The notes below the pieces were generated by a model, which saw only the letters and a list, made by a program, of their open reading frames with translations, searched no databases and was not told where the DNA came from. The translations under genes were made by a program, and so were the position numbers. Shown one piece after another: positions 8,127 through 62,861 of a stretch of 64,000 nt of DNA (position 1 is its first letter; each line of letters opens with the position of its first letter). Source of the stretch: Alteromonas sp. M12 (lineage in GTDB: Bacteria; Pseudomonadota; Gammaproteobacteria; Enterobacterales; Alteromonadaceae); assembly GCF_037478005.1 (NCBI RefSeq), contig NZ_CP144164.1:2046001-2110000 (forward strand), in the 5' to 3' direction.

Positions 8127-8773
8127 TTTGATGGCTCTTAGGCTTGGCTAAAGATGACGATCTTGGCGCTTAGTTCGCTTATTGAGCATGAAAGCCCTAC
8201 CCAGATACTTAATTCCGATATCCAGTTCAAAGATATTACACCTATTTAACTATCCAATAACAATAGCAGACATTTTAGAGCAAATAAACTCAAAATAAAT
8301 CATTGGTTGTTTCACATTCTTGTTGTGGCTACATATAGGCTTTAAATTTTAGCTTGTCGAAGATTACGAACCATAGGTAATTCACAATAAGTCGATTAGT
8401 TTTCGACTACCTGTTTGGCTAAAAATTTAATCAACACAGGCTGACAATAATCACTCTTCCATATCCAATTTAAGTTGCTAATACGGCAAATTATTAACCC
8501 ATGTGATGACTGATGGCGTTACAAATTTAATTTTTTGACGTAATATGCTTTAAATTAATCTGTTTTGATAATAAGCTGGGGGGTGACAACTTTGTTGCTA
8601 GATTGTTTCTTATTGTTAACGAGTCCGAGTCAAGGGCAACTGGGCATAAGTTGATAATAGTTCAAGACGTAAAAAGAAAATAAGAGCGCAATGGATACCA
8701 TGTTATTAAATAGCAGAAAGAATGCTGGTGAATACGGGTCTGCAAAAGTAGCAATCCGTAAGGCTAAATTATT
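8127..8773. promoter_or_regulatory. Divergent intergenic region (sulfatase/GH105 operon and GH39-like/GH78 operon)
   Basis: This 647-bp AT-rich stretch holds no credible gene. It must carry promoters for both divergent operons. Two weak members of the 10-bp-phased word family are seen: on the minus strand TGATTT, TGAGTT, TGCTCT and TGTCTG (8302 down to 8267), and on the plus strand TGACGT, TGCTTT, TAATCT and TGATAA (8536-8571). They are less regular than the arrays at 29735 or 37528 and need statistical support. Confidence 0.5.
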
Positions 8774-19224: not shown

Positions 19225-19250
19225 TGATTGCAAATGACTATAGGTGGTTG
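19225..19250 (+). promoter_or_regulatory. 10-bp-phased operator candidate upstream of GH106 operon
   Basis: TGATTG (19225), TGACTA (19235) and TGGTTG (19245) are spaced exactly 10 bp. A TTGACA at 19213-19218 lies directly upstream, so the words would overlap the core promoter of the rhamnosidase operon. Same word family as the arrays at 29735, 37528 and 41781. Confidence 0.55.
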
Positions 19251-19411
19251 TTATTGTTTTGTTGAGTTAGGAAACATTGATATCGAACAACTAGGGATGA
19301 GGTATCAAATTTCCAGAAAAATGGCTGACTCTATGGAACTATTCATGATGAAGTGATGTGGGATTGACACCATTTAAAGATTATAAACCTATATTCTACG
19401 GTAATAAAAAG

Positions 19412-28332: not shown

Positions 28333-28647
28333 TTAATTTAGATGAAAAACACACGGAATTGAGTTAACTACTGGCGAGTTATCTTCATTGGTTTCCATAA
28401 TGTCAGCCATATATGCCCACCATTTCTTTACGATTGGCTCAAGTGGTAATTCGTCCATTTTGTGATTTGATGTTCGTTTTAGCACAGCAAATAGCTTGTT
28501 CGATTCTTTTTCTAAAAATATCGAGTAGTCTGACACGCCTGCCTCTTTTAAGGCTGTTACCAACTCAGGCCAAATTTCATCATGTCGTTTTTCATATTCA
28601 GCCTCAAATCCTGGTAGTAAGGTCATAACAAATGCGACTTTTTCCAT
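28333..28647 (-). CDS. rhaM: L-rhamnose mutarotase
   Basis: Interconverts alpha and beta anomers of L-rhamnose so that the product of the rhamnosidases can enter catabolism. The 104-residue protein aligns by eye with E. coli RhaM: K-V-A-F-V-M at the start, [12 protein letters not shown] (containing the catalytic His), [17 protein letters not shown] and D-N-S-P-V. I use the internal Met (M-E-K-V-A-F) as start, matching the family's length; the frame could begin five codons earlier at 28662. A GC-rich hairpin with a T-run lies between it and the upstream DUF4861 gene, so its expression probably depends on read-through. Confident assignment. Confidence 0.94.
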
Positions 28648-28667
28648 TTTTTTGCTTCTCATTATTA

Positions 28668-28706: not shown

Positions 28707-29609
28707 TTAATTGTTGACGTTATCTAAATACTTTTGCCAGGCTTGACTGTTCGTAATTTTACCCGCGCCTTCCCAAGCAAATCCTGCTTTGTATGATAAT
28801 CTCCCTTGCTGGTCCGTTGTGGTAAACATCCAAATGTGGCTTTCGTCTTTAACGTCGCTTGGAAGATGTTTAATATCTTCAACCTTAGAAGGATCGAGTA
28901 ACGCGCCTGTACCGACTCCCAAATCATCAATTACCTCCCAAGCAGAAATACGTCCTTTTTCTTTGTTGTAAGACACTTTGGCTTTTTCGTCATGTGTGGC
29001 AACACCAATCGCGATGGGTAGGGCACTAGGTTTACCGTCAAGTGTAAAAACGGAATCGACTTGGAATAATTGCGTCCCCATTGGCAATGAAATCGTTTTT
29101 ATCTCTTTCACTATTCCAAGTGGGGTGTACCATTCATATTCCAGTTCAAAAGCAACTTTGTCATTACCACTTTCTATTACCTTGTAGCGTTTGAAACTGT
29201 GAGCAGTATAGGCTTGTCCATCTAACCAAATAGCTGTACCACCGACACCACGACTAATTCCGGTATGATACGGGTCATAACCCTCACCACGATCTTCATG
29301 GTATGAAATACCATTCACATAGTTTTCGTACCATTTATCGATAATCGAATAGTCTACTTTTTTAAACCAGGCATCTACACCACTTGAATGTCCTTTAAGT
29401 GGAGCCGCGGGGCCGTAAACGCGAAAGGCTACGCGGTCATTTTCCCACGCAAAGTCATCTCGGCGCTCTGGTACAAAGCGAGCATAGGCTTTAACTTCTG
29501 ATTTGTTCGCTGTTAATTGAGCGTCATTGTCAGTTTGCTTGGTAGAACAAGCGATTAATACTGTACTCACGGCTAACGCAAGTAAAGGTAACTTAAATTT
29601 CATTTGCAT
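28707..29609 (-). CDS. DUF4861-family lipoprotein
   Basis: A 300-aa exported lipoprotein (signal ending L-I-A-C) of the DUF4861 family, which recurs in uronate-polysaccharide loci. Visible family features are R-R-D-D-F-A-W-E-N-D-R-V-A-F-R-V-Y-G-P, Y-H-E-D-R-G-E-G-Y-D-P-Y with R-G-V-G-G after it, and a C-terminal F-A-W-E-G-A-G. The fold is probably a beta-sandwich and the conserved His, Asp, Tyr and Arg cluster looks catalytic. A dehydratase acting on saturated uronic acid ends of ulvan oligosaccharides has been described in another ulvan locus; whether it belongs to this family I cannot confirm. Start has AGGA 8 nt upstream. Transcribed from a promoter overlapping a perfect four-word phased array. 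Confidence 0.8.
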   Translation of the reverse strand: MQMKFKLPLLALAVSTVLIACSTKQTDNDAQLTANKSEVKAYARFVPERRDDFAWENDRVAFRVYGPAAPLKGHSSGVDAWFKKVDYSIIDKWYENYVNGISYHEDRGEGYDPYHTGISRGVGGTAIWLDGQAYTAHSFKRYKVIESGNDKVAFELEYEWYTPLGIVKEIKTISLPMGTQLFQVDSVFTLDGKPSALPIAIGVATHDEKAKVSYNKEKGRISAWEVIDDLGVGTGALLDPSKVEDIKHLPSDVKDESHIWMFTTTDQQGRLSYKAGFAWEGAGKITNSQAWQKYLDNVNN

Positions 29610-29722: not shown

Positions 29723-29770
29723 ATAACACCATTAAAGTCATTAAAAGTCAAGGTCAGTCATCTTGAATCA
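29723..29770 (-). promoter_or_regulatory. Promoter with perfect four-word 10-bp-phased operator (DUF4861-rhaM)
   Basis: Read on the minus strand, TGATTC, TGACTG, TGACTT and TGACTT occur at exactly 10-bp steps (plus-strand TCA ends at 29770, 29760, 29750, 29740). The third word lies inside a -35 box TTGACT (29746-29751), with 17 bp to a -10 TGTTAT (29723-29728). A protein bound here would block the polymerase. Confidence 0.75.
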
Positions 29771-30031: not shown

Positions 30032-30074
30032 TGACTATAAATGATTGACAAAGATTTAAATTGGAGTGTATTGT
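30032..30074 (+). promoter_or_regulatory. Promoter and phased words upstream of lldD operon
   Basis: TGACTA (30032), TGATTG (30042) and AGATTT (30052) keep the 10-bp phase. The second word overlaps a consensus -35 TTGACA (30045-30050) that is followed after 18 bp by TATTGT (30069-30074). The remaining 29771-30253 sequence holds no gene. Confidence 0.6.
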
Positions 30075-34562: not shown

Positions 34563-35060
34563 CTACGCTAGCTTAGAGTTTTTGATTCTATGTATTGTTG
34601 TAATGTTTGTTGTTATCACAAAAACCTCCATCAAGGTACCACCGATACTACCAATCAACATATTATTGATTAGCCACAGAGATGCGCCTGCTATGATGCC
34701 TAATCGCATATTTACACCATGCAAACAGAACAAAGAATATACGCCAATCACATTAGCTAGTATGACAAGAAAATCCAAATAAGATTGATAGTTGTATAAA
34801 CCAACGACTATCGTAATAAAAATAAATGCGAATGCAGTGGTATAAGAGCGGGTATAAATTGCAACAATAGATCTTACCATGCTCAGTAAACAAAGGAGCG
34901 CAGGAACTGTAGCGTCCAATAAATAAAAGTGGGAAGCATGTACCAAAAAGAACATCGCTAATAATGCTTTTAACGTAACATCTTTTTTCTGATAATAAGC
35001 AAGGATTGCTAACAGAAAGCTTATCCCGCCAATTAGTTGTCCTACTATATGCGTGTCCAA
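34563..35060 (-). CDS. YgjV-family inner-membrane protein
   Basis: A 165-aa polytopic membrane protein with about five to six hydrophobic helices, matching the YgjV (Imp-YgjV) family: G-Q-L-I-G-G-I-S-F-L near the start, Y-Y-Q-K-K near residue 22, a central M-V-R-S-I-V-A motif, and a last helix with N-N-M-L-I-G-S-I-G-G-T. The function of the family is unknown. It is a single gene with no obvious functional tie to glycan use, set between convergent and co-oriented operons of the locus. Confidence 0.8.
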   Translation of the reverse strand: MDTHIVGQLIGGISFLLAILAYYQKKDVTLKALLAMFFLVHASHFYLLDATVPALLCLLSMVRSIVAIYTRSYTTAFAFIFITIVVGLYNYQSYLDFLVILANVIGVYSLFCLHGVNMRLGIIAGASLWLINNMLIGSIGGTLMEVFVITTNITTIHRIKNSKLA

Positions 35061-37527: not shown

Positions 37528-37563
37528 TGACCTAAAATGAATTAATATGATTGTAAATGAGTT
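37528..37563 (+). promoter_or_regulatory. Perfect four-word 10-bp-phased operator candidate
   Basis: TGACCT, TGAATT, TGATTG and TGAGTT begin at 37528, 37538, 37548 and 37558, exactly 10 bp apart. The array lies in the divergent region between the nucleoside-hydrolase-like operon and the beta-propeller lyase gene. A weak promoter for the latter (TTAACA 37564-37569, 17 bp, TAAATT 37587-37592) abuts its right end, so binding could control both directions. Confidence 0.75.
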
Positions 37564-37611
37564 TTAACAATTTAACAAATCATCACTAAATTTTTTAAGA
37601 GATTAAAATAA

Positions 37612-39034: not shown

Positions 39035-39141
39035 ACAACTAACCAGTTGCTAACAATAAATTCAAATTTCAGGCCTGTTGTCGATTATTTAGTTTAAGAA
39101 ATTATCTATACAGTAGATTCTTGCTCGGCTTCTGCCATAAG

Positions 39142-39167
39142 AAATCAATTTAGTTCAAAGTTAATCA
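39142..39167. promoter_or_regulatory. 10-bp-phased words upstream of the RpiB-like gene
   Basis: AAATCA, AGTTCA and TAATCA (plus strand 39142, 39152, 39162) put TCA at exact 10-bp steps, equivalent to TGATTA, TGAACT and TGATTT on the minus strand. They lie 50-75 bp before the RpiB-like gene start. Confidence 0.5.
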
Positions 39168-41780: not shown

Positions 41781-41816
41781 CAATAGATTATAGTCAATAG
41801 TAGTCAATAACAATCT
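41781..41816 (-). promoter_or_regulatory. Promoter with 10-bp-phased operator (beta-helix gene)
   Basis: On the minus strand AGATTG, TGACTA, TGACTA and CTATTG occur at exact 10-bp steps (41816 down to 41781). A perfect -10 TATAAT (41787-41792) is embedded at the right end, with TTGTTA 15 bp upstream as a weak -35. Occupancy of the words would cover the core promoter. Confidence 0.7.
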
Positions 41817-42315
41817 TTTATTCGCTTTGAATAGTATGAAGAAGGGGGGGAGGGACTAATTTAACTAATTCAAACTTTGAAAAACTCTCTGCTTTATTCC
41901 TATTAAATTTTATTTTCCACTAAGTTAACCGTTAAATTCTATGCAAATCTAATGGTCTTCTCTACTTTTTGATTAACTTATCAGCAATATTCTTGTTATA
42001 GATTTCCAAAACTGAGTGAGAAAATTAGAATATGTTAATCTATCATATTCAGTCAAAATATTGCATTTCGAGTCATTTAGGTTTATTGTCTAATGCTTGA
42101 AAGATGACAGTAGAGCTTGAGTGTCAACTTTTACTTAAAGTTTTCAGCAAGCAGTTGCTTGAAAATTAACAATGACTAATAACAAAAGAAATAAATAAAA
42201 TTTCTAACAACTAAATACTCCGACAGAGAATCTTGGCTACGGTCAGGAGGTCGGCTCGTGCCTGTAAAGCGAGTAAACATATAAATTACAGTTAATAGTT
42301 AACTAAGGAGACGCG
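41817..42315. promoter_or_regulatory. Upstream region of the pnt operon with phased words
   Basis: No gene is seen here. CTATCA, CAGTCA, ATTGCA and GAGTCA lie at 42040, 42050, 42060 and 42070, so three of four words keep TCA at 10-bp phase, as in the other arrays. Closer to the gene, a short GC-richer block (about 42235-42282) stands out from the AT-rich background and could be a structured leader; I could not identify it. Confidence 0.45.
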
Positions 42316-43464
42316 ATGAGCACGGTAGTGTTTGTTAAAGAACAGGTAGATAACGAGAAGCGATGTAGTTGTTTACCCAGTAATGTTAAAGCGTTTGTAA
42401 AGCTCGGTATGAATGTTTGTGTTGAGAGCGGAATTGGTGAAAAACTCCATATTTCTGATGCTGAATACGCTGAGGTTGGAGCAAAAGTTGAGACTGATAG
42501 AGCACGGCTTTTTAACGATGCTGATTTTATACTTTCGATACATCCTTTAATGAAGGAAGAGTTGGAGCTAAGTAAAACTAGTGCATGCTGTATTAGCTTT
42601 CTAGATCCCTTTAACGCCTTGGATCATATCACTTGGCTACAAAAATCGGGACGCTCAGCGCTGAGTATGGAGCTTATACCTAGAAGTAGTCGGTGTCAGA
42701 AAATGGATGCATTGAGCTCACAAGCCAGTTTAGCTGGTTATGTAATGGTTGCCCAAGCAATGTTTGCTTTACCTAAAGTCTTTCCTATGATGATGACACC
42801 CTCAGGCACGATTAAACCTACAAAAGTATTTGTTATTGGCGCTGGAGTTGCAGGCTTACAAGCCATTGCTACAGCAAAAAGATTGGGTGCGTCTGTTATT
42901 GCTTATGATACTCGTGAAACTGTTGCAGAACAGGTTCGTTCATTAGGTGCCAAATTTCTAGAAATAGATTTAGGTGAAACTGGCCAGAACGAACAAGGTT
43001 ATGCAAATGCCCTAAGCCAACAGCAGATTGAATTACAACAAAAAGCACAAGCCGACTGCATTAAAGACGCCGATGTCGTTATCACTACCGCACAGCTATT
43101 TGGACGAAAACCGCCTTTACTAATTAAAAAAGACGTTATTCGTCAAATGAGAGCCGGTAGTGTCATTGTTGATATGGCTGCGGAATCTGGCGGAAACGTT
43201 GAGGGAACTGTCGCAGGAGAAAACGTTGTTTATGAGGGGGTTACTATAATTGGTATGGGGAACTGGAGTAGCAACGTAGCCTTCCATGCGAGTCAAATGT
43301 ATGCCAATAACTTACAAGCGCTATTGATGGAATTCTGGAACGAGGAGGAAAAACGGCCAGTACTCGACTTAAGTGATGAGATTCTGCAAACAGCACTAAT
43401 CACTCATAAAGGCCAATTAATTAATCCAAGTATAAAAGCCTTACTTACACAGGAGTGCAACTAA
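42316..43464 (+). CDS. pntAA: NAD(P) transhydrogenase alpha subunit, part 1 (NAD-binding domain I)
   Basis: Soluble NAD(H)-binding domain of proton-translocating transhydrogenase, 382 aa. It has the alanine-dehydrogenase/PNT N-terminal domain and the Rossmann motif V-I-G-A-G-V-A-G-L-Q-A-I-A-T-A-K-R-L-G-A, then D-M-A-A-E-S-G-G-N for hydride transfer. The split into three genes (pntAA, pntAB, pntB) is the alphaproteobacterial-type arrangement; E. coli has the two halves of PntA fused. Start ATG follows AAGGAG at five bases. Its stop overlaps the next start as TAATG. Inside a glycan locus it may supply NADPH or rebalance NADH formed by KduD and lactaldehyde oxidation. Weak phased words lie 240 bp upstream. 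Confidence 0.92.
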   Translation: MSTVVFVKEQVDNEKRCSCLPSNVKAFVKLGMNVCVESGIGEKLHISDAEYAEVGAKVETDRARLFNDADFILSIHPLMKEELELSKTSACCISFLDPFNALDHITWLQKSGRSALSMELIPRSSRCQKMDALSSQASLAGYVMVAQAMFALPKVFPMMMTPSGTIKPTKVFVIGAGVAGLQAIATAKRLGASVIAYDTRETVAEQVRSLGAKFLEIDLGETGQNEQGYANALSQQQIELQQKAQADCIKDADVVITTAQLFGRKPPLLIKKDVIRQMRAGSVIVDMAAESGGNVEGTVAGENVVYEGVTIIGMGNWSSNVAFHASQMYANNLQALLMEFWNEEEKRPVLDLSDEILQTALITHKGQLINPSIKALLTQECN

Positions 43465-43739
43465 TGTCACTTATATATTTATCGACCATTTTAGTACTCG
43501 CCATATTTTTAGGATTTGAGCTTATTCGTAAAGTTCCAGCAACTTTACATACCCCTTTAATGTCAGGCGCTAACGCAATTTCAGGTATTACTTTAGTGGG
43601 GGCATTAGCATATGCCGGAGGTGAGTTTACGATTGTTACTAAAGTTTTCGCGTGTGTATCAGTAATGCTGGCAACAATTAATGTTGTTGGCGGTTATATG
43701 GTAACAGACCGTATGTTAGCAATGTTTAAAGGTAAATAA
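43464..43739 (+). CDS. pntAB: NAD(P) transhydrogenase alpha subunit, part 2 (membrane domain)
   Basis: A 91-aa membrane subunit with three hydrophobic helices: the segment after M-S-L-I-Y-L-S-T-I-L-V-L-A, then T-P-L-M-S-G-A-N-A-I-S-G-I, the conserved PNT motif, and the final V-N-V-V-G-G-Y-M-V-T-D-R-M-L. The frame can begin at GTG 43455, but AGGAG spans that position and the ATG at 43464, overlapping the pntAA stop, is 8 nt after it, so I choose it. Forms half of the proton channel with PntB. Confidence 0.92.
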   Translation: MSLIYLSTILVLAIFLGFELIRKVPATLHTPLMSGANAISGITLVGALAYAGGEFTIVTKVFACVSVMLATINVVGGYMVTDRMLAMFKGK

Positions 43740-43748
43740 GGACGCATC

Positions 43749-45131
43749 GTGGAAAGTATGGAATTTATGATAAACGCAATCTACATTGCTTGTGTGGTCT
43801 TATTTGTATTTGGCCTAAAACTATTAAGTCATCCTTCGTCGGCAAGAAAAGGGAATACATTGTCAGCTTTAGGAATGTTAGTTGCTATTGTTGCGACTCT
43901 ATTGGATCAGCAAATTATCTCCTACGAGTGGATAGCAGTATCGCTCATTTTAGGAAGTTTAATTGGTGCAGTTATGGCAAAGCGCGTTGAAATGACCAAA
44001 ATGCCGGAAATGGTATCAATACTCAATGGAGTGGGGGGGATGGCTAGTTTATTAGTCGCATTAGCCGTTTTTTGGGCTGGAGAAAAGATAGAAACCTATA
44101 TTTTGGCCATTATGTTAATAGCAGTCGCGATTGGCAGTATTACCTTTAGCGGAAGTATTATCGCTTGGGCAAAGCTAAGTGGTGAAATACCTAAGCTTGT
44201 AAGCAGTGGTGCTACTGTTTTCAAAGGACAAGCAATTATTAATGTTCTTATTTTAGTCAGTATATGTGCATTGGCAGGCGTAGTTGTGGTCGCGCCAGAA
44301 AACATTGAGTTTGTTATCTGCTTTTCAATTCTTTGTCTCGTACTCGGAGTAATGTTGGTGTTGCCAATTGGTGGCGCTGATATGCCAGTAGTTATTTCTT
44401 TACTCAATAGTTATTCAGGGTTGGCTGCATGTGCAGCTGGATTGGCAATTAATAACAACTTACTCATTGTTGCTGGGGCGTTGGTTGGTGCAAGTGGTAT
44501 AATTTTGACAAGTATAATGTGTAAAGCAATGAATAGGTCTTTAAGCAATGTTTTATTCTCTGGTTTTAAAAACAACGCATCAAATAAAATTGAAATTGAA
44601 GGTGAAGTGACCCCCATTGTGGCCGAAGATGCATTCTTCGTGTTGGAGGCTGCACAGTCAATTTTGGTTATACCTGGATATGGTATGGCGGTTGCTCAAG
44701 CTCAACATGCTATGAAAGAACTTCAGGTATTGTTAGAAGAAAACGATGCTGAAGTTGTATATGGCATTCACCCCGTTGCCGGACGCATGCCTGGGCACAT
44801 GAATGTATTACTCGCCGAGGCCGATGTGCCTTACGAAGTGTTATTGGAAATGGATGAAGTAAACGCTCGTATGGAAAACTTTGATGTCGCTATTGTTATT
44901 GGCGCGAATGATGTAGTTAATCCTGCAGCAAGAGATATGGAAGGGAGCCCTATTTACGGAATGCCTGTAATAAATGCAGATTTAGCAAAAAATGTTTTTA
45001 TCCTGAAACGAGGAATGTCTTCGGGTTTTGCTGGTGTAGATAATCCATTATTCTTCAAATCCAATGCACGTATGATATTTGGTGATGCAAAAGATACTAT
45101 TAATACGATTATCAGACAGTTTTCCGACTAG
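43749..45131 (+). CDS. pntB: NAD(P) transhydrogenase beta subunit
   Basis: A 460-aa subunit: about nine transmembrane helices in the first 260 residues, then the soluble NADP(H)-binding domain III with V-I-P-G-Y-G-M-A-V-A-Q-A-Q-H, G-I-H-P-V-A-G-R-M-P-G-H-M-N-V-L-L-A-E and I-G-A-N-D-V-V-N-P-A-A. These motifs are family diagnostic. The GTG at 43749 has AAGGA six bases upstream and is preferred over the ATG at 43758. Last gene of the pnt operon, followed by a hairpin at 45216. Membrane-bound; couples proton entry to NADPH formation. Confidence 0.95.
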   Translation: MESMEFMINAIYIACVVLFVFGLKLLSHPSSARKGNTLSALGMLVAIVATLLDQQIISYEWIAVSLILGSLIGAVMAKRVEMTKMPEMVSILNGVGGMASLLVALAVFWAGEKIETYILAIMLIAVAIGSITFSGSIIAWAKLSGEIPKLVSSGATVFKGQAIINVLILVSICALAGVVVVAPENIEFVICFSILCLVLGVMLVLPIGGADMPVVISLLNSYSGLAACAAGLAINNNLLIVAGALVGASGIILTSIMCKAMNRSLSNVLFSGFKNNASNKIEIEGEVTPIVAEDAFFVLEAAQSILVIPGYGMAVAQAQHAMKELQVLLEENDAEVVYGIHPVAGRMPGHMNVLLAEADVPYEVLLEMDEVNARMENFDVAIVIGANDVVNPAARDMEGSPIYGMPVINADLAKNVFILKRGMSSGFAGVDNPLFFKSNARMIFGDAKDTINTIIRQFSD

Positions 45132-46693: not shown

Positions 46694-47003
46694 ATCAATT
46701 TTCCGTTTCTATTTTACTTGTTATATATAAGCGATTTTATGGTCAATTATTAATTTTTAACAATTGTGTAATACTTAATAGCGAAATCACTCATTCAATT
46801 GTACAACATGTTAACTCTAGGTGATTTGTTTTGCAATAATTTGATTGTTTTTGGAGGTGTTGGAGTGGCAAAATGCGATGGCGTTTGTGTAGCCTCAATA
46901 TATAAACAGTGGTTAAGGTAGTGGAGTAAGATTAGCGTATTGATTACTTAGTTAACTTTATAAATCACTTTAAGTTAATATTGATTTGTCGTTTTAAATA
47001 CAA
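46694..47003. promoter_or_regulatory. Intergenic region upstream of the kinase gene
   Basis: AT-rich, no gene seen. On the minus strand TTGACC (46746-46741) could be the -35 box of the kinase promoter. Only one word of the phased family is present, so this promoter looks different from the arrays elsewhere. Confidence 0.4.
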
Positions 47004-50124: not shown

Positions 50125-50255
50125 TTTTCGCTCCGTTTTAGCATTAACGTTGGTGGAGCAATAAATATATGCACAAAAATAACAAATAACAAACAAATTA
50201 AATACAATTAGATCATATTAGGTCGTCATTTGTTGCTTACGGTTATTTGAAGTTA

Positions 50256-51053
50256 CTAACCTTTTACGTTCTTATTAGTGCTTTCAGCAATGAGTACTTC
50301 AATTCCAAAGGATTCAAAAAAGGAAATTAGTTCTTTATCGATACCAGAATCTGTTATCAAAATATCTACTTCTGTTAATGGGCATAAAATATATTTTGAT
50401 CTTTTACCTATTTTATCACTGTCGGCAAGCACAATGAGCTTTTCAGTACGCTTTTTTAATTTTTGCTCAGACCTGATTAATAAGGGATCAGATTCCATCA
50501 CGCCGTATTTTCCTATGCCCGATGTACCCATAAACATCATACTGCCGTGATAATATTCAGACCCATCATTCTCGTACGAGCTTAATAAAATTCCTTGCTC
50601 TCTATATATTTCCCCACTTGGTAGGGAAATTCGGCTTTCACTATTTGTAGTCAGGTAATTAGCCAATTCTAATGAATTCGTTAATATGTTGAGTCTCAAA
50701 TCAATAAGAAACTCAGCCATCATGTGTGTTGAGAGACCGCCACTAATTATTAATGAGTCGCCATTTTTACACAGTTGCGCTGCTTTTTTTGCTATCTGTT
50801 TTTTTGCTAAGGTTCTTTTCTCTTTAGCGGCTGAAAAGCTGGACGGTCCTAATACTTGTTTGTCATATAAGTGCTCTATGGATTCCACACCTCCCTGAAT
50901 CTTTTTTACTACTCCGGTTTTAGATAGCTTATTTATATCTCTCCTGATAGTTGCCTCTGAAACCTGTAATTGTTGCGTTAGGTTTTTTACACTCACAAAT
51001 TGTTGTTTTGCTAAAACCTCTTTTATGAGTTGCTGCCTGTGTTTTTCTAACAT
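50256..51053 (-). CDS. DeoR-family transcriptional regulator (paralogue 1)
   Basis: A 265-aa regulator. Residues 1-57 form the DeoR winged helix-turn-helix: M-L-E-K-H-R-Q-Q, V-S-V-K-N-L-T-Q-Q-L and the recognition helix S-E-A-T-I-R-R-D-I-N-K-L-S-K, then K-I-Q-G-G. The C-terminal part (L-I-I-S-G-G-L-S-T, L-T-N-S-L-E-L-A, L-P-S-G-E) is the DeoR sugar-phosphate-binding domain, so the effector is likely a phosphorylated or acidic sugar intermediate. The paralogue at 56339 shares the recognition helix almost exactly. A long phased array at 51171-51226 lies upstream, consistent with autoregulation. It and the TRAP operon are divergent. Likely a repressor. Confidence 0.9.
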   Translation of the reverse strand: MLEKHRQQLIKEVLAKQQFVSVKNLTQQLQVSEATIRRDINKLSKTGVVKKIQGGVESIEHLYDKQVLGPSSFSAAKEKRTLAKKQIAKKAAQLCKNGDSLIISGGLSTHMMAEFLIDLRLNILTNSLELANYLTTNSESRISLPSGEIYREQGILLSSYENDGSEYYHGSMMFMGTSGIGKYGVMESDPLLIRSEQKLKKRTEKLIVLADSDKIGKRSKYILCPLTEVDILITDSGIDKELISFFESFGIEVLIAESTNKNVKG

Positions 51054-51170: not shown

Positions 51171-51226
51171 AAATCAAATATAGTCAAACTAATTCAAATA
51201 TGGAAGTAACAAGTCATTTACAATCG
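51171..51226 (-). promoter_or_regulatory. Long 10-bp-phased operator candidate (DeoR/TRAP divergent region)
   Basis: In six consecutive 10-bp steps the plus strand reads AAATCA, TAGTCA, AATTCA, TGGAAG, AAGTCA and CAATCG (51171, 51181, 51191, 51201, 51211, 51221). Four keep TCA and a fifth keeps TC. In minus orientation they are TGATTT, TGACTA, TGAATT, (CTTCCA), TGACTT and CGATTG. It sits between the regulator gene and the TRAP operon and could control both. Confidence 0.7.
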
Positions 51227-56027: not shown

Positions 56028-56338
56028 ATCAACTCCTCGTATATTTAAAGCATTTAAAATAGTGGAAATTCGTGTTGCTCTTTTACAATTAGCTAATATT
56101 GGCTAGTCAATATTCAATCTCAAAGTAACACGGTTGCACCTAGGTCAATACTGTTAATATACAGTCATATGTGATTAATTTAAAGCAAAGTGTGTCATTT
56201 GAGGTGGTGAGGATATTAAATCCTTGAAAGTGCTACTTAAAGCACTATTGGTGAGAGCTGTTAACTAAGCTTTTGGATGATCAAAACTGTAATCATCAAA
56301 ACAACGTGTAGAGGATTGGTTTGAACAGTCAAATGCTA
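56028..56338. promoter_or_regulatory. Upstream region of the kduI-kduD operon
   Basis: No gene seen. On the minus strand, phased words TGACTG and TGACCT stand 20 bp apart (plus 56162-56167 and 56142-56147), with a TTAACA between at the 10-bp step, so two of three fit. Another TGACTA (56104-56109 region) is off phase. Support is weak. Confidence 0.4.
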
Positions 56339-57136
56339 CTATTTGTTCTTTGGCACAGAAACTGTAATTACTTGAATTTCATGCTTTTCAAATAACTCTA
56401 AGAATCGAGGTTCAACGTTGCTATCCGTAATAAGAACATCAACTTTATCAAGAGAACATAAAATCAAAGAACTTCGTTTACCAATCTTAGAACTATCCGC
56501 TAAAACAATCAGTTGATCGGCTTGCTTTAATAGCTTCTGTTCTGAAAGCACTAGCATGGGGTCTGTTTCCATCAAGCCAAACTCACCTATAGCAGGCGTA
56601 CCCATGAACATTTTACTACCGTGATAATTAGAAATTCCATCGTTCTCAAACGAACTTAAAATGATACTTTGTTTTCTATATAACTCACCACCAGGCAGGG
56701 TTACTTGGTTGTCAGAATTTTCGGCTAACTCATGAGCTAAAGCAAAAGAGTTCGTCAGAATATTTAAATGGCGCGTAGCAAGCGCATTTTTCATCATGAA
56801 GGTGCTACTTCCACCATTAATTATGATCGATTCACCTTCTTCACACAATGATACTGCCTTATCAGCAATAAGCGCTTTAATTTCTTTGTTTTGCTCAGTG
56901 TCTGCGAGAAATACAGAGCCCTTAAGGTGCCTACGCTCATGGGAATGTGACGAAACATTATTCGACTGAGCACCACCTCTGATTTTAGTTAATGCTTTTC
57001 TTTTTGAAAGTTTGGTTATATCGCGACGGATAGTTGCTTCAGAGGCTTTTAATTTACTAGATAGAACAGGAACAGATGCGTAGCCCATTTCAGCTAGCAA
57101 TTCAATGAGCAAATGATGTCTTTGTTTTTCAAGCAT
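56339..57136 (-). CDS. DeoR-family transcriptional regulator (paralogue 2)
   Basis: A 265-aa DeoR regulator, the same length as the protein at 50256 and alike throughout. N-terminus M-L-E-K-Q-R-H-H, recognition helix S-E-A-T-I-R-R-D-I-T-K-L-S-K, then K-I-R-G-G; effector domain with S-I-I-I-N-G-G-S-S-T, I-L-T-N-S-F-A-L-A, L-P-G-G-E and G-T-P-A-I-G. Because the recognition helices match, both probably see the same or overlapping operators while their C-termini could sense different inducers, one from rhamnose and one from uronate breakdown (inference). Separate transcript, AAGG eight bases before the start; last gene of the locus. Confidence 0.9.
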   Translation of the reverse strand: MLEKQRHHLLIELLAEMGYASVPVLSSKLKASEATIRRDITKLSKRKALTKIRGGAQSNNVSSHSHERRHLKGSVFLADTEQNKEIKALIADKAVSLCEEGESIIINGGSSTFMMKNALATRHLNILTNSFALAHELAENSDNQVTLPGGELYRKQSIILSSFENDGISNYHGSKMFMGTPAIGEFGLMETDPMLVLSEQKLLKQADQLIVLADSSKIGKRSSLILCSLDKVDVLITDSNVEPRFLELFEKHEIQVITVSVPKNK

Positions 57137-58070
57137 TTTGTTAACCTTTGTATCTAAATATCCATATGTTAACCTAGTTTGACAGTTAATGACATAAAGT
57201 GAAAATATTTTTTATATATGCGAACAAACTTTCTAAAATTATGATAATTATTTGTTTGGTTGCTATTTGTTACTTTTGATATAAGTACGATTTAAACAAA
57301 TAACCATCATCCGTATTCAAATTTTTGAGAGAATTTAAACAAGCTCTGTTCAAATTCTTTTGTATTTGCTTTGCCTTTACTTATCCTCCTCTTTTTTTTA
57401 GTTACATTTTAACCATTCACAGTGACTAGCAAAGACAATGAGCCCAATATATTATCCTTTGATATGGCTGGGGGAGTTTGAGTCTATGCGGGCGCACCTT
57501 TGTAATTGAGGTTGTTTATCGATTAGTCGTTTTCTAGATCTGCGCGGGATTACGCTGTTAGCCTGTTTTTTTTCACTTCCTTCAGCTACAAATTTACAAT
57601 TTAGATAAGGTCAAAATTGCGCATACAATGGCCTGCTGTTTTGGATTAGTTAGAATATCAAATATAAAGCTTCGGTATTAATTTTGGTTAATTACTGCCA
57701 CCCCAAATGATATTTAGCTTTACATAGCATAAACCGCTTTAATAATTAGTTTTCTATAACATCTGGATGTGATGGGTAGTGAGCAATTCCGATACTTACT
57801 TCTGATGTTATCGGAAAGGTTAGAAATTATGATTGACTGATGACATGTACTAACGAGTTGTTTAGCTGAGCTTTGAGCTTTGTTGATGCTAAGTGAGGGG
57901 CTCAAAATACAAGTCGAAACTACTTTTAAATCTAATGTATTTATTATGCCTTTAATTTTTTAAAATTATTATTCTCAAAAAAAATCAATTTGTTAAGTGA
58001 GTTTACTTACTGAAAAGTTGGTTTTTTGCTGATTGACGTTGACTGCTTCCTATAAATACCTTAACCTAAA
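57137..58070. other. Gene-free boundary of the polysaccharide locus
   Basis: About 930 bp of AT-rich DNA between the second DeoR gene and the Fur box. I saw no credible coding frame, tRNA or mobile-element end. A 61-codon frame on the minus strand (57720-57905) lacks a ribosome-binding site and protein-like composition. Confidence 0.5.
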
Positions 58071-59280: not shown

Positions 59281-60390
59281 TTGAAAACATTTACATGCCA
59301 ATGTGGTAATACTTTGCATTTCGCGAACGTTCAGTGCGTATCGTGCGGGTTAATGCTAGGTTTTATTCCACAAGACAACAGACTTAGCGCTTTTACAACT
59401 AACCAGTATGGTAATTTGCAGGCTTCCAGTAATGGTTTGTTATTTAAAAAGTGTAAAAATTATTCAGAGCACAATGTTTGCAACTGGATGGTTCCCCTTG
59501 AAGATTCGCATGATTATTGTGTTTCATGCCGACTTAATGAAGTGATTCCAGATCTGGATGATGTAGAAAATAGAGTGCTATGGGCAAAAATGGAGCTCGC
59601 AAAAAGGCGTTTGTTATATACCTTGCTGAAACTTAATTTACCCCTCGTTGATCGTACAAAAGACCCAATAAATGGATTGGGGTTTGCGTTTTTGCGTGAT
59701 AAAACTCAAGATTCATTTGGCAATGAACTAACCGTAAAGAGTTTTGTTACTACAGGTCATGCCAATGGTTTGATTACGATTAATCTTAATGAAGCCGATG
59801 ATAGTGCGCGCGTTGATATGCGTGAAAAAATGAATGAACGCTATCGCACTTTGCTTGGTCACTTCCGACATGAATCAGGCCATTATTATTGGGATAGGTT
59901 AATATCTGACAGCGATAAAATAGATGAATTTCGAAGATTATTTGGTGATGAACGTCTAGATTACGTGAAGTCGATGGAAACCTATTATGCAAAGGGGCCT
60001 AACGAAAACTGGCAAAATGTTTGGATAAGTGCTTATGCAAGTATGCACCCTTGGGAAGATTGGGCTGAAACATGGGCGCACTATTTACATATGCTAGATA
60101 CGTTAGAAACCGCTAACGATTATGACTTCTCAATTTCTGGCAATAAAATTGCCAGTCCAATTCCAAACATGGATAGCGTGATTGATCAAATTTATACTTC
60201 TACCTCATTCACCCATCTTTTCAACGATTGGTGTCAATTGACCAAGGTATTAAACGCCTTGAATAGAAGCATGGGTCTTGATGATGCTTATCCTTTTGTG
60301 ATTTCCATTTCGGCATTGGATAAATTACGCTTCATCCATGAAGTCGTATTAGATTCTGAGATGACCAGTTTGAGCAAGGGTGCTGCGTAA
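59281..60390 (+). CDS. Zinc-ribbon metallopeptidase (putative zinc-binding metallopeptidase family)
   Basis: A 369-aa cytoplasmic protein. Start is TTG, with AGGA eight bases upstream. N-terminal zinc ribbon: Cys6, Cys8, Cys19 and Cys22, then Cys58, Cys67, Cys80 and Cys83. The peptidase part carries H197-E-S-G-H-Y-Y-W-D205, an H-E-x-x-H-type zinc site, and a downstream W-E-D-W-A-E-T-W-A-H that can give the third ligand. This family recurs in gene clusters with alpha-E, circularly permuted ATP-grasp, transglutaminase-like and Anbu proteins, exactly the neighbours here, so it probably acts in the same, still poorly defined, peptide-modification or amidation system. Confidence 0.85.
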   Translation: MKTFTCQCGNTLHFANVQCVSCGLMLGFIPQDNRLSAFTTNQYGNLQASSNGLLFKKCKNYSEHNVCNWMVPLEDSHDYCVSCRLNEVIPDLDDVENRVLWAKMELAKRRLLYTLLKLNLPLVDRTKDPINGLGFAFLRDKTQDSFGNELTVKSFVTTGHANGLITINLNEADDSARVDMREKMNERYRTLLGHFRHESGHYYWDRLISDSDKIDEFRRLFGDERLDYVKSMETYYAKGPNENWQNVWISAYASMHPWEDWAETWAHYLHMLDTLETANDYDFSISGNKIASPIPNMDSVIDQIYTSTSFTHLFNDWCQLTKVLNALNRSMGLDDAYPFVISISALDKLRFIHEVVLDSEMTSLSKGAA

Positions 60391-60477
60391 TCAATCGTGG
60401 TCTGTCTCTTAGTTGGTTAAAAGCCTAGTTAAACGCAGTTAACCTTCGCTTGAAAGATTAATTGAGCCTTTTGATGG

Positions 60478-61212
60478 TTATTTTTCCCAGTCGAAGCGAG
60501 GAAGATTTTCGAACGCTCTTTTTAAACCTTCATTCCACTGCTTTTGTACTGATCTGTACATGTTACTATTTGTCGTCAATACGTTGTGATAAGGCTCTTC
60601 TATCTGGTCTGTTCGATGAATCGCTAATTCAATTGGTGGTCCAACGGATATGTTACTGCGAATCGTTGAATCTAGTGAAACGATAGCGCATCTAGCGGCA
60701 TCTTCTAATGATGTTGAGGGCGTAATAATACGATCTAATATTGGCTTCCCATATTTATTCTCGCCAATTTGTAAAAAGGGGGTTTCGTCAGATGCCGAAA
60801 TATAATTGCCTTGGGGATATATCAAAAATATTTCACTCTTTTTACCTTTGATTTGACCACCGAGTAAAAAGCTTGATTCATTACTGGTTTTTGACTTTTC
60901 CATGGCATCAGCATGTCGTTTTTGTTCTTGTTGACTTAAATCTCCAATGTACTGAGCTACTTCATGGAGGTAGTTCCCTTGACTGATATCAAAATCAGCG
61001 TTGGGATCTGATAAGTCACGTTTTATGGCATTTATTACCGCTTGAGATGTGGCTAAGCTACCTGAAGTTAATAGTACGATTGTTCGATTGTCAGGAAATA
61101 CGAAGCTGGACATCTTACTGTAAGTGGCAACATAATCGACGCCAGCATTGGTACGGGAGTCCGAGGCGAATACTAAACCTTTATTCAGGGCAATAGCTAA
61201 ACAGTAAGTCAA
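60478..61212 (-). CDS. Anbu proteasome-type protease
   Basis: Ancestral beta-subunit (Anbu) of the HslV/20S protease superfamily, 244 aa. N-terminal Thr2 (M-T-Y-C-L-A-I-A) is the expected nucleophile after Met removal, followed by F-A-S-D-S-R-T-N-A-G-V-D-Y, which holds the conserved Asp, and Y-S-K-M with the active-site Lys. Anbu proteins form open helical rings. Divergently transcribed from the ATP-grasp/alpha-E operon across a 194-bp region, as in many bacteria. Substrate unknown; the genomic link to ATP-grasp and alpha-E proteins is established by comparative genomics. Confidence 0.92.
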   Translation of the reverse strand: MTYCLAIALNKGLVFASDSRTNAGVDYVATYSKMSSFVFPDNRTIVLLTSGSLATSQAVINAIKRDLSDPNADFDISQGNYLHEVAQYIGDLSQQEQKRHADAMEKSKTSNESSFLLGGQIKGKKSEIFLIYPQGNYISASDETPFLQIGENKYGKPILDRIITPSTSLEDAARCAIVSLDSTIRSNISVGPPIELAIHRTDQIEEPYHNVLTTNSNMYRSVQKQWNEGLKRAFENLPRFDWEK

Positions 61213-61406
61213 TTGGCTTCTCTTTGATTTATTTAACGTTAAAACATCTTGTTATTGAGAAAAAACTTGCTCATATAATGCAGCGCAGTTATTTTGAACT
61301 GTGGCGAATTTAAAAACAATAAAATTTTAAATTTACACCTGACAAAAGCTTAACTATGTGAGTAAACTAAGATTAAACAACAATAATAAGTAAGTCTGGA
61401 GGATCT

Positions 61407-62861
61407 ATGGCGATTAGATGGGGAAACTATGCAATAGGTCAATTTTATGACGAGCTGATTCAGGGGCGATCTAAACCGAGAGAGTATGCGAAAGATTTGT
61501 GTGACTACCTCAAGGGGTTGTCTGATAACGAACTAAAAGAATATAAAGCCGCATCCGATTCTGCCATTCAGGTTATGGGCATAACGTTTAGAATCTATAA
61601 CGATGAAGAGGGTTCCATAGACCGCGCATGGCCTTTCGACATTATACCTCGCCTAATTGAACTCAAAGAATGGCAGCAAATTGAACTAGGCCTTAAACAA
61701 CGTGTAAAAGCACTGAATATGTTTATTGATGACTTATACAATGATCAAAACATTATCAAAGACGGTGTTTTTCCGGCGAACTTATTAAAAAAATCTAAAA
61801 ACTTTTTGAAAGATTGTATTGGTGTGAAGCCACCGCAGGGCATTTGGGCGCATATTTGTGGCTCAGACCTGGTGCGAGATCACAACGGAACCGTATATGT
61901 GTTAGAAGACAACCTTCGTGTTCCCTCTGGTGTTTCCTATATGTTGGAAAATCGACAAGTTATGAAGCGCGTTTTTCCAGAAATGTTCGAAAAATACAAT
62001 ATTCTTCCCATTGATAATTACCCTTCAGATTTATATGACATGTTGGCCAGTCTGTCACCACGAGATGTGAAAGAGCCGGAAATAGTGGTGTTAACTCCCG
62101 GTATATATAATTCAGCCTATTTTGAACATGCTTATTTGGCGCAACAAATGGGTGCTGAATTGGTAACGGGTGATGATTTAGTTGTGAAAGAAGATGATTG
62201 CGTCTACATGCGAACCATCAATGGATTAAATCGTGTGGACGTAATATATCGCCGAATTGACGACTGGTATATTGACCCAGAAGTATTCCATCCTGACTCA
62301 ACGTTAGGTATTCCTGGGATTATGCGAGCTTGGAAAAAAGGCAATGTTGGTTTGGCCAACGCACCGGGTTCAGGGGTCGCTGATGATAAAGTTGTCTACA
62401 GTTATGTACCTGAAATTATTAAATATTATCTTAATGAAGACGCTCTGCTACCGAATGTGCCAACCTATCGTTGCGTTAATCCAGAAGAACGTGAATATGT
62501 GTTAGAAAATATTGAAAAAATGGTTGTAAAACCGGCCAATGAATCTGGTGGATATGGTATGTTGATTGGTCCACATGCATCTAAACGAGAGCATCAAAAA
62601 TTCCGACAATTAATCAAAAAAGATCCGCGTAATTATGTAGCTCAGCCAATGCTGTTGTTATCCACTGCGCCTACTTTGATAGATAACAAAGCTGAAGGAC
62701 GTCATTTAGATTTAAGACCCTTTATATTAAGTGGGCAAGATATCAAAGTAACCATGGGGGGCTTGACCAGAGTCGCCATGATTAAAGGCTCTACTGTGGT
62801 GAACTCATCACAAGGTGGTGGTAGTAAAGATACATGGATTGTTGATATGGAGGGCAATTAA
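61407..62861 (+). CDS. Circularly permuted ATP-grasp protein (CP_ATPgrasp family)
   Basis: A 484-aa enzyme of the circularly permuted ATP-grasp family (formerly DUF404/DUF407). Visible: D-D-L-Y-N-D-Q-N-I-I-K-D-G-V, E-D-N-L-R-V-P-S-G-V-S-Y-M-L-E-N-R, V-K-P-A-N-E-S-G-G-Y-G-M-L-I-G-P near the ATP site and R-H-L-D-L-R-P-F. ATP-grasp enzymes link a carboxylate to an amine, so a peptide or amide ligation is expected, probably as a pair with the alpha-E protein. GGAGG precedes the ATG. Ends 1 bp before the alpha-E start. Confidence 0.93.
   Translation: MAIRWGNYAIGQFYDELIQGRSKPREYAKDLCDYLKGLSDNELKEYKAASDSAIQVMGITFRIYNDEEGSIDRAWPFDIIPRLIELKEWQQIELGLKQRVKALNMFIDDLYNDQNIIKDGVFPANLLKKSKNFLKDCIGVKPPQGIWAHICGSDLVRDHNGTVYVLEDNLRVPSGVSYMLENRQVMKRVFPEMFEKYNILPIDNYPSDLYDMLASLSPRDVKEPEIVVLTPGIYNSAYFEHAYLAQQMGAELVTGDDLVVKEDDCVYMRTINGLNRVDVIYRRIDDWYIDPEVFHPDSTLGIPGIMRAWKKGNVGLANAPGSGVADDKVVYSYVPEIIKYYLNEDALLPNVPTYRCVNPEEREYVLENIEKMVVKPANESGGYGMLIGPHASKREHQKFRQLIKKDPRNYVAQPMLLLSTAPTLIDNKAEGRHLDLRPFILSGQDIKVTMGGLTRVAMIKGSTVVNSSQGGGSKDTWIVDMEGN

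Follow-up and report, generated by a model that had tools for sequence, protein, structure and literature searches.

Predicted motifs of DeoR-family RhaR regulators in four lineages consist of two imperfect direct repeats with a periodicity of 10-11 bp, and in EMSA the RhaR of Chloroflexus aurantiacus binds 38 bp of DNA carrying four tandem sites, from which L-rhamnulose frees it (Rodionova et al. 2013, PMC3870299). Since these RhaR operators are known, an array architecture of this kind, four tandem copies included, is not new, and a preliminary description of the locus studied here was mistaken in seeing no counterpart for it among rhamnose operators. Other predicted RhaR regulons (e.g. Rhizobiales, Thermotogales) have the same direct repeats and 10-11-bp periodicity, with sequences unique to each lineage; Alteromonadales were not found by a word search of the text of that paper (PMC3870299). 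Direct-repeat operators at rhamnose genes are also a feature of AraC-type regulators, with a periodicity of 21 bp (PMC3870299). The main texts of two papers on ulvan loci of Pseudomonadota (PMC13050008, PMC7953866) did not contain operator, promoter or DeoR in a word search. No title on such an operator in Alteromonadales was found in the literature searched, which lies mostly outside subscription journals, and literature on ulvan together with DeoR concerned only other subjects.

The locus lies in a 64,000-nucleotide stretch of Alteromonas sp. M12 DNA (the window) and holds four TGAYT words in 10-bp steps before the DUF4861-rhaM operon. It is like the Chloroflexus RhaR system in combining a DeoR-family regulator, rhamnose genes and short-word tandem repeats of 10-11-bp periodicity, and unlike it in word (TCGAAA in Chloroflexus) and phylum; Chloroflexus RhaR has L-rhamnulose as its inducer and binding shown by EMSA, whereas here it is architecture that is compared (PMC3870299). 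New at this locus are the TGAYT word, its occurrence in Alteromonadales and a reach that spans the locus. The four words very probably serve as operator for a sugar repressor of the DeoR family, the likeliest candidates being DeoR1 and/or its paralog DeoR2, and the operator word is most likely common to many rhamnose and uronic-acid operons of marine bacteria. For marine Alteromonadales this provides an operator word that can be tested and a candidate regulon in which rhamnose use and unsaturated-uronate use come together. The graded arrays of this one locus also offer a natural series for how repeat number sets repression.

Direct reading of the minus strand from 29770 to 29736 gives TGATT-N5-TGACT-N5-TGACT-N5-TGACT with the spacers CAAGA, GACCT and TTTAA, which bears out the exact 10-bp spacing first reported; the further claim that every word faces the same side of the helix holds nearly, not exactly, after three 10-bp steps. 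The array lies 127 bp upstream of the DUF4861 start. A candidate -35 element, TTGACT (29751-29746), is followed after 17 bp by a candidate -10 element, TGTTAT (29728-29723), preceded by TG, so that the array would overlap the -35 box of the promoter we infer. A consensus promoter scanner omits TTGACT-17-TGTTAT from its list because it requires A at -10 position 2, and its promoter-like sites there (7 versus 7.3 in shuffles) show no excess. The earlier placement of the words over a -35 box is plausible for the two hexamers, at a putative promoter for which the scanner does no better than chance. The features of the window are collected in Table 1.

Table 1. Regulatory features and relevant genes of the window, by position (G003, nearest relative used; ranks are those in a scan with a matrix from other species)
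Feature	Position	Strand	Basis
Array before sulfatase-GH88 operon: TGATT, TGAGT, TGCTC, TGTCT	8268..8302	-	Matrix rank 3
Array before GH106 gene: TGATT, TGACT, TGGTT, TGTTT	19225..19259	+	Matrix rank 2; no ortholog in G003 stretches compared
rhaM, L-rhamnose mutarotase, next in operon after DUF4861	28333..28662	-	Pfam PF05336
DUF4861 protein gene, first gene of operon	28707..29609	-	Pfam PF16153
Putative promoter of DUF4861-rhaM operon, TTGACT-17-TGTTAT	29723..29751	-	Sequence reading; TTGACA-17-TGTTAT at corresponding place in G003
Proposed operator, four TGAYT words in 10-bp steps: TGATT, TGACT, TGACT, TGACT	29736..29770	-	Sequence; words 2-4 kept in G003
Array before lldD-like gene: TGACT, TGATT, AGATT, TGGAG	30032..30066	+	G003 comparison; matrix rank 1
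Array before BNR_4 gene: TGACC, TGAAT, TGATT, TGAGT, CAATT	37528..37572	+	Matrix ranks 8, 16
Array before rpiB-like gene (opposite strand): TGATT, TGAAC, TGATT, TGGCA	39133..39167	-	G003 comparison; matrix rank 28
Array before pectate-lyase-like gene: AGATT, TGACT, TGACT, CTATT	41782..41816	-	G003 comparison; matrix rank 6
Second array, between lyase-like gene and pntA: TGACT, TGCAA, TGACT, TGATA	42041..42075	-	G003 comparison; matrix rank 18
Array before FGGY kinase gene (opposite strand): TGATT, TGCAA, TGATT, TGGAG	46822..46856	+	G003 comparison; matrix ranks 7, 9
Weak array at start of second TonB-receptor gene, overlapping called TTG start	50181..50225	-	Matrix ranks 12, 20; partly genic
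DeoR1, DeoR-family regulator, proposed binder	50256..51053	-	Pfam DeoRC + HTH_DeoR; nearest NCBIfam UlaR, below cut-off
Array before DeoR1: TGACT, CTTCC, TGAAT, TGACT, TGATT	51172..51216	-	G003 comparison; matrix ranks 4, 13, 14
Weak array before kduI-kduD: TGCTT, TAATC, TGACT, TTAAC	56153..56187	-	Matrix rank 24
DeoR2, paralog of DeoR1 (52% identity), proposed binder	56339..57136	-	Profile match; nearest NCBIfam UlaR, below cut-off

Within the 5.0-Mb genome, three or more exact TGAYT words at 10-bp steps occur at this array alone (two overlapping matches), and the reversed pattern used as control has 0 matches. It is also the sole four-copy array of the window when any 5-mer with one two-letter position allowed is scanned at periods 6-15. 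By the same measure, 42 of 200 dinucleotide-shuffled windows hold some four-copy array, and 3 of 200 hold one of some word at period 10; because of these counts and the post hoc choice of the array, the four-fold array alone is only moderately improbable. The chance odds of a lone array are therefore unimpressive, and it is recurrence elsewhere that makes the array real. That it is a chance regularity of AT-rich intergenic DNA with no binding role, as the shuffled windows taken by themselves would allow, is hardly credible, being already contradicted by recurrence, conservation and independent prediction. The phased array is real and conserved, in an architecture already known.

Eight TGAYT pairs at a spacing of 10 bp occur in the window, all eight in intergenic DNA (8283 of 62861 annotated bases by the gene list used), and they form six separate sites. 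At 20 bp, six of seven pairs are intergenic; the remaining spacings from 5 to 30 bp have 0-3 pairs each, those at 21 bp being three, all genic. Comparison with G003, whose intergenic identity to the window is 43-67%, gave 83% identity in words versus 63% in spacers for 29 words at seven sites (Fisher p 1e-4, positions not independent; the 58030 pair and the GH106 site stand outside this comparison and counting them would alter the figures), and the G of the word was conserved in 29 of 29. The DUF4861 array of G003 reads TGATT/TGACA/TGATT at words 2-4, has lost word 1 and retains TTAATGGTGTTATG downstream. Conservation of the perfect four-fold repetition was accordingly rejected, and the form first singled out is not a unit kept across promoters, as the sister promoters have 2-5 words with mismatches. 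A further TGAYT pair, at 58030-58044, was rejected as an array member, being unconserved in G003 and outside the 30 best matrix placements.

That matrix was made from 30 sites of other species alone (L033 dropped) and scanned over the window. Its 21 best placements were 19 wholly and 2 partly intergenic, and its best 30 comprised 26 intergenic, 2 partly intergenic and 2 genic; the DUF4861 array ranked fifth. The scan added sites at the sulfatase-GH88 operon, the BNR_4 gene, the second TonB receptor and, weakly, kduI. Genome-wide, TGAYT pairs at 10 bp number 94 versus 58 for the reversed pattern, about background outside the locus; the window has 8 of them and the 27 kb immediately to its left another 6, one of these six within a called ORF (L096 16100). 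The pattern TGAYT-N5-TG-N8-TGAYT has 5 of its 10 genome matches in the window (control 3). Across 21 genomes, the loose pattern was close to its control and did not separate genomes by presence of DeoR1/2, with whole-genome matches of 6 in each of G002 and G004, both without DeoR1/2, and 3 in G003, which has it. The preliminary description had named similar arrays at unrelated promoters, or at the frequency given by base composition, as what would speak against the operator; the genome-wide scan did not come out that way, with arrays clustering at the locus, its left flank and rhaEW, though pairs elsewhere stay near background.

A Pfam scan of 39 of the 51 window ORFs of at least 100 aa (the rest being ten overlapping ORFs, one of 165 aa at 34563 and one at 62815) recognized no transcription factors other than DeoR1 and DeoR2. 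At the protein level their nearest named family is UlaR (NF010034), with full-length DeoR-type similarity of 189.7 and 198 bits, respectively, although unlike UlaR proper both fall below the curated equivalog cut-off of 244 bits. The best-matching models were UlaR, SrlR and AgaR, all sugar-operon regulators. PDB sequences gave no match to DeoR1 at E 1e-3, and an Rfam scan of the window gave none. The SEATIRRD helix is common to 24 of 24 aligned relatives and is widespread in the wider DeoR family, and so does not discriminate between DeoR1 and DeoR2. The array before DeoR1 is a possible case of autoregulation. Upstream of DeoR2, at 57160-57205 on the plus strand, TGACA-N5-TGACA-N5-TGAAA repeats at a 10-bp step (TGACA, AGACA, TGAAA in G003), a variant word at this regulator's own promoter. 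The locus gene set comprises rhamnosidases, GH88, sulfatases, BNR_4, KduI/KduD and TRAP, which, against the background of such gene sets, suggests that it serves ulvan; the match of the BNR_4 protein to a rhamnosidase model is far below cut-off.

In the genome collection, proteins related to DeoR1 at 61-81% identity turned up in 18 places, with FGGY kinase (15/18), KduD (14), KduI (12), TRAP DctM (11) and pntA/B (9) genes nearby. Of these 18 loci (L016-L033), 16 have one or more exact TGAYT pairs at 10 bp, the two in which none was found being L025 and L030. Since most compared loci were picked via DeoR1, DeoR2 or DUF4861, the linkage to DeoR is partly built in. The held-out set comprised the intergenic DNA of 26 loci (210 regions, 63 kb), without L019 and L056, duplicates of G003 and L023; L029 and L033 were both counted despite a partial overlap, which holds no 10-bp pair. 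This DNA contains 33 TGAYT pairs at 10 bp versus 1.0+-0.9 in 60 shuffles, followed by 17 at 20 bp and 12 at 30 bp. Spacings of 14 (12 pairs) and 24 (11 pairs) are also raised, which fits a TTGACT at a fixed place after the words in several sites. In the 30 sites, T and G recur at the non-selected positions +20/+21 (19 and 19 of 30) and +30/+31 (20 and 17 of 30).

Arrays precede a DUF4861-containing operon in G000, G003, G006 and G055, the array of G006 and G055 lying before a GH88 gene that itself stands before DUF4861. No exact 10-bp pair was found before such an operon in G046, G054 and G059, where a relaxed scan, run without a null, gave single matches in each stretch. G059 (52%) and G046 (55%) have a DeoR1/2-type protein, yet no exact 10-bp pair in the 20-kb DUF4861 stretch; array presence set against DeoR1 presence at DUF4861 operons is weak evidence, on which nothing here rests. 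The DeoR1/2-type homolog L118 (G046:C13:12319-13101) has a stop inside the match, and the corresponding DUF4861 stretch, L058, has no exact 10-bp TGAYT pair.

Several genes for 730-aa proteins have a site 86-94 bp upstream, and one of these proteins is RhaEW, the bifunctional rhamnulose-1-phosphate aldolase/dehydrogenase; the one in L018 was named by profile and the others by length and place, rhaEW being afterwards found by profile. A profile search of 246 genomes of the family, blind to motif and regulator, gave 26 rhaEW copies in 25 genomes. When three-word periods of 7-13 bp were compared in the 250 bp upstream, 10 bp came out best in 24 of 26 copies (L115 has 7 and L127 has 11), whereas in 40 rounds of shuffled promoters it was best in 3.8 copies on average and in 9 at most; the count was the same with crude and with better start codons. 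As four of the 26 promoters are DNA in L018, L026, L027 and L032, this count and those of the held-out set and the 30 sites are not wholly independent. In the window's own genome, rhaEW is found 32 kb beyond the left edge of the window, at a distance of about 62 kb from the DUF4861 array, and has TGAGT/TGATT/TGCTT/TGTTT phased over TTGACT-16-TAAAAT. Phased repeats therefore precede rhamnose catabolic genes at the rhaM operon, at this distant rhaEW and at nearly all copies searched, and period 10 dominates in the window, in the held-out loci and at rhaEW promoters. A DeoR1/2-type protein is encoded in 25 of 25 rhaEW genomes (best E 8e-83 or lower) versus 7 of 60 relatives at large (E 1e-40), and a DeoR-type gene adjoins rhaEW in several, e.g. 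G007, G029 and G059; near the targets in the window stand DeoR1 and DeoR2. G224, of the same species as the window's genome, has no rhaEW match at E 1e-200, so that rhamnose genes may vary within the species.

The arrays could also be occupied by a different kind of protein that reads direct repeats of about 10-11 bp, for instance a response regulator of OmpR type or an activator of AraC type whose gene lies elsewhere. OmpR- and AraC-type proteins use short direct repeats, and some relatives have another regulator beside the array (LysR, L028:8064-8969). The rhamnose regulators of AraC type have a 21-bp repeat (PMC3870299), a spacing at which the held-out DNA has 7 pairs against 33 at 10 bp and 17 at 20 bp, the signal having periods of 10, 20 and 30 bp. 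With no such gene among the 39 scanned ORFs, and with DeoR-type proteins throughout the rhaEW genomes and next to rhaEW in several, a reader of another class is unlikely. The arrays, their recurrence at functionally linked promoters, their conservation and their company with a regulator gene, all computed directly, argue instead for the phased direct-repeat operator first proposed, most likely bound by DeoR-family proteins.

The identity of the binder, repression over activation, cooperativity and an inducer are inferred. A repressor oligomer would touch the TG of one word after another with its HTH domains, at roughly one word for each turn of the helix. Lying on nearly one helix face, it would cover the -35 box and shut off the DUF4861-rhaM promoter until an intermediate of rhamnose or uronate breakdown released the protein. 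The same phased word would control many operons of the locus and the distant rhaEW. The same protein and operator could instead serve activation, as the weaker NCBIfam matches include one DeoR-family activator, that of the L-fucose operon; this is quite improbable, given that the words overlap a probable -35 box at both DUF4861 and rhaEW, that SrlR and AgaR among the best models are named repressors, and that Chloroflexus RhaR acts as a repressor (PMC3870299). For repression by DeoR1 and DeoR2, we further offer the speculative and rather doubtful idea that both share one word and read it from 2-5 phased copies; how firmly each operon of the polysaccharide locus is repressed would follow from how many words it has and how good they are, with the perfect DUF4861-rhaM array among the tightest, as a copy-number code for the ordered induction of rhamnose and uronate use.

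Several neighbors of the arrays are observations in their own right. The NAD(P) transhydrogenase genes pntA/pntB (42316-45131) accompany the DeoR1/kduD cluster in the window and at the nine loci L017, L018, L019, L020, L022, L023, L027, L029 and L033, an association that may have to do with the cofactors that the uronate pathway requires. In Pseudoalteromonas, an array lies between a regulator-sized gene (LysR in L028) and an MCP with a Cache domain (L028:9086-9110 and L029:13917-13931), and chemotaxis may be part of the regulon. At 59281-62861, zinc metallopeptidase-like, proteasome-subunit-like and circularly permuted ATP-grasp genes are adjacent to one another, beside but apart from the sugar locus.
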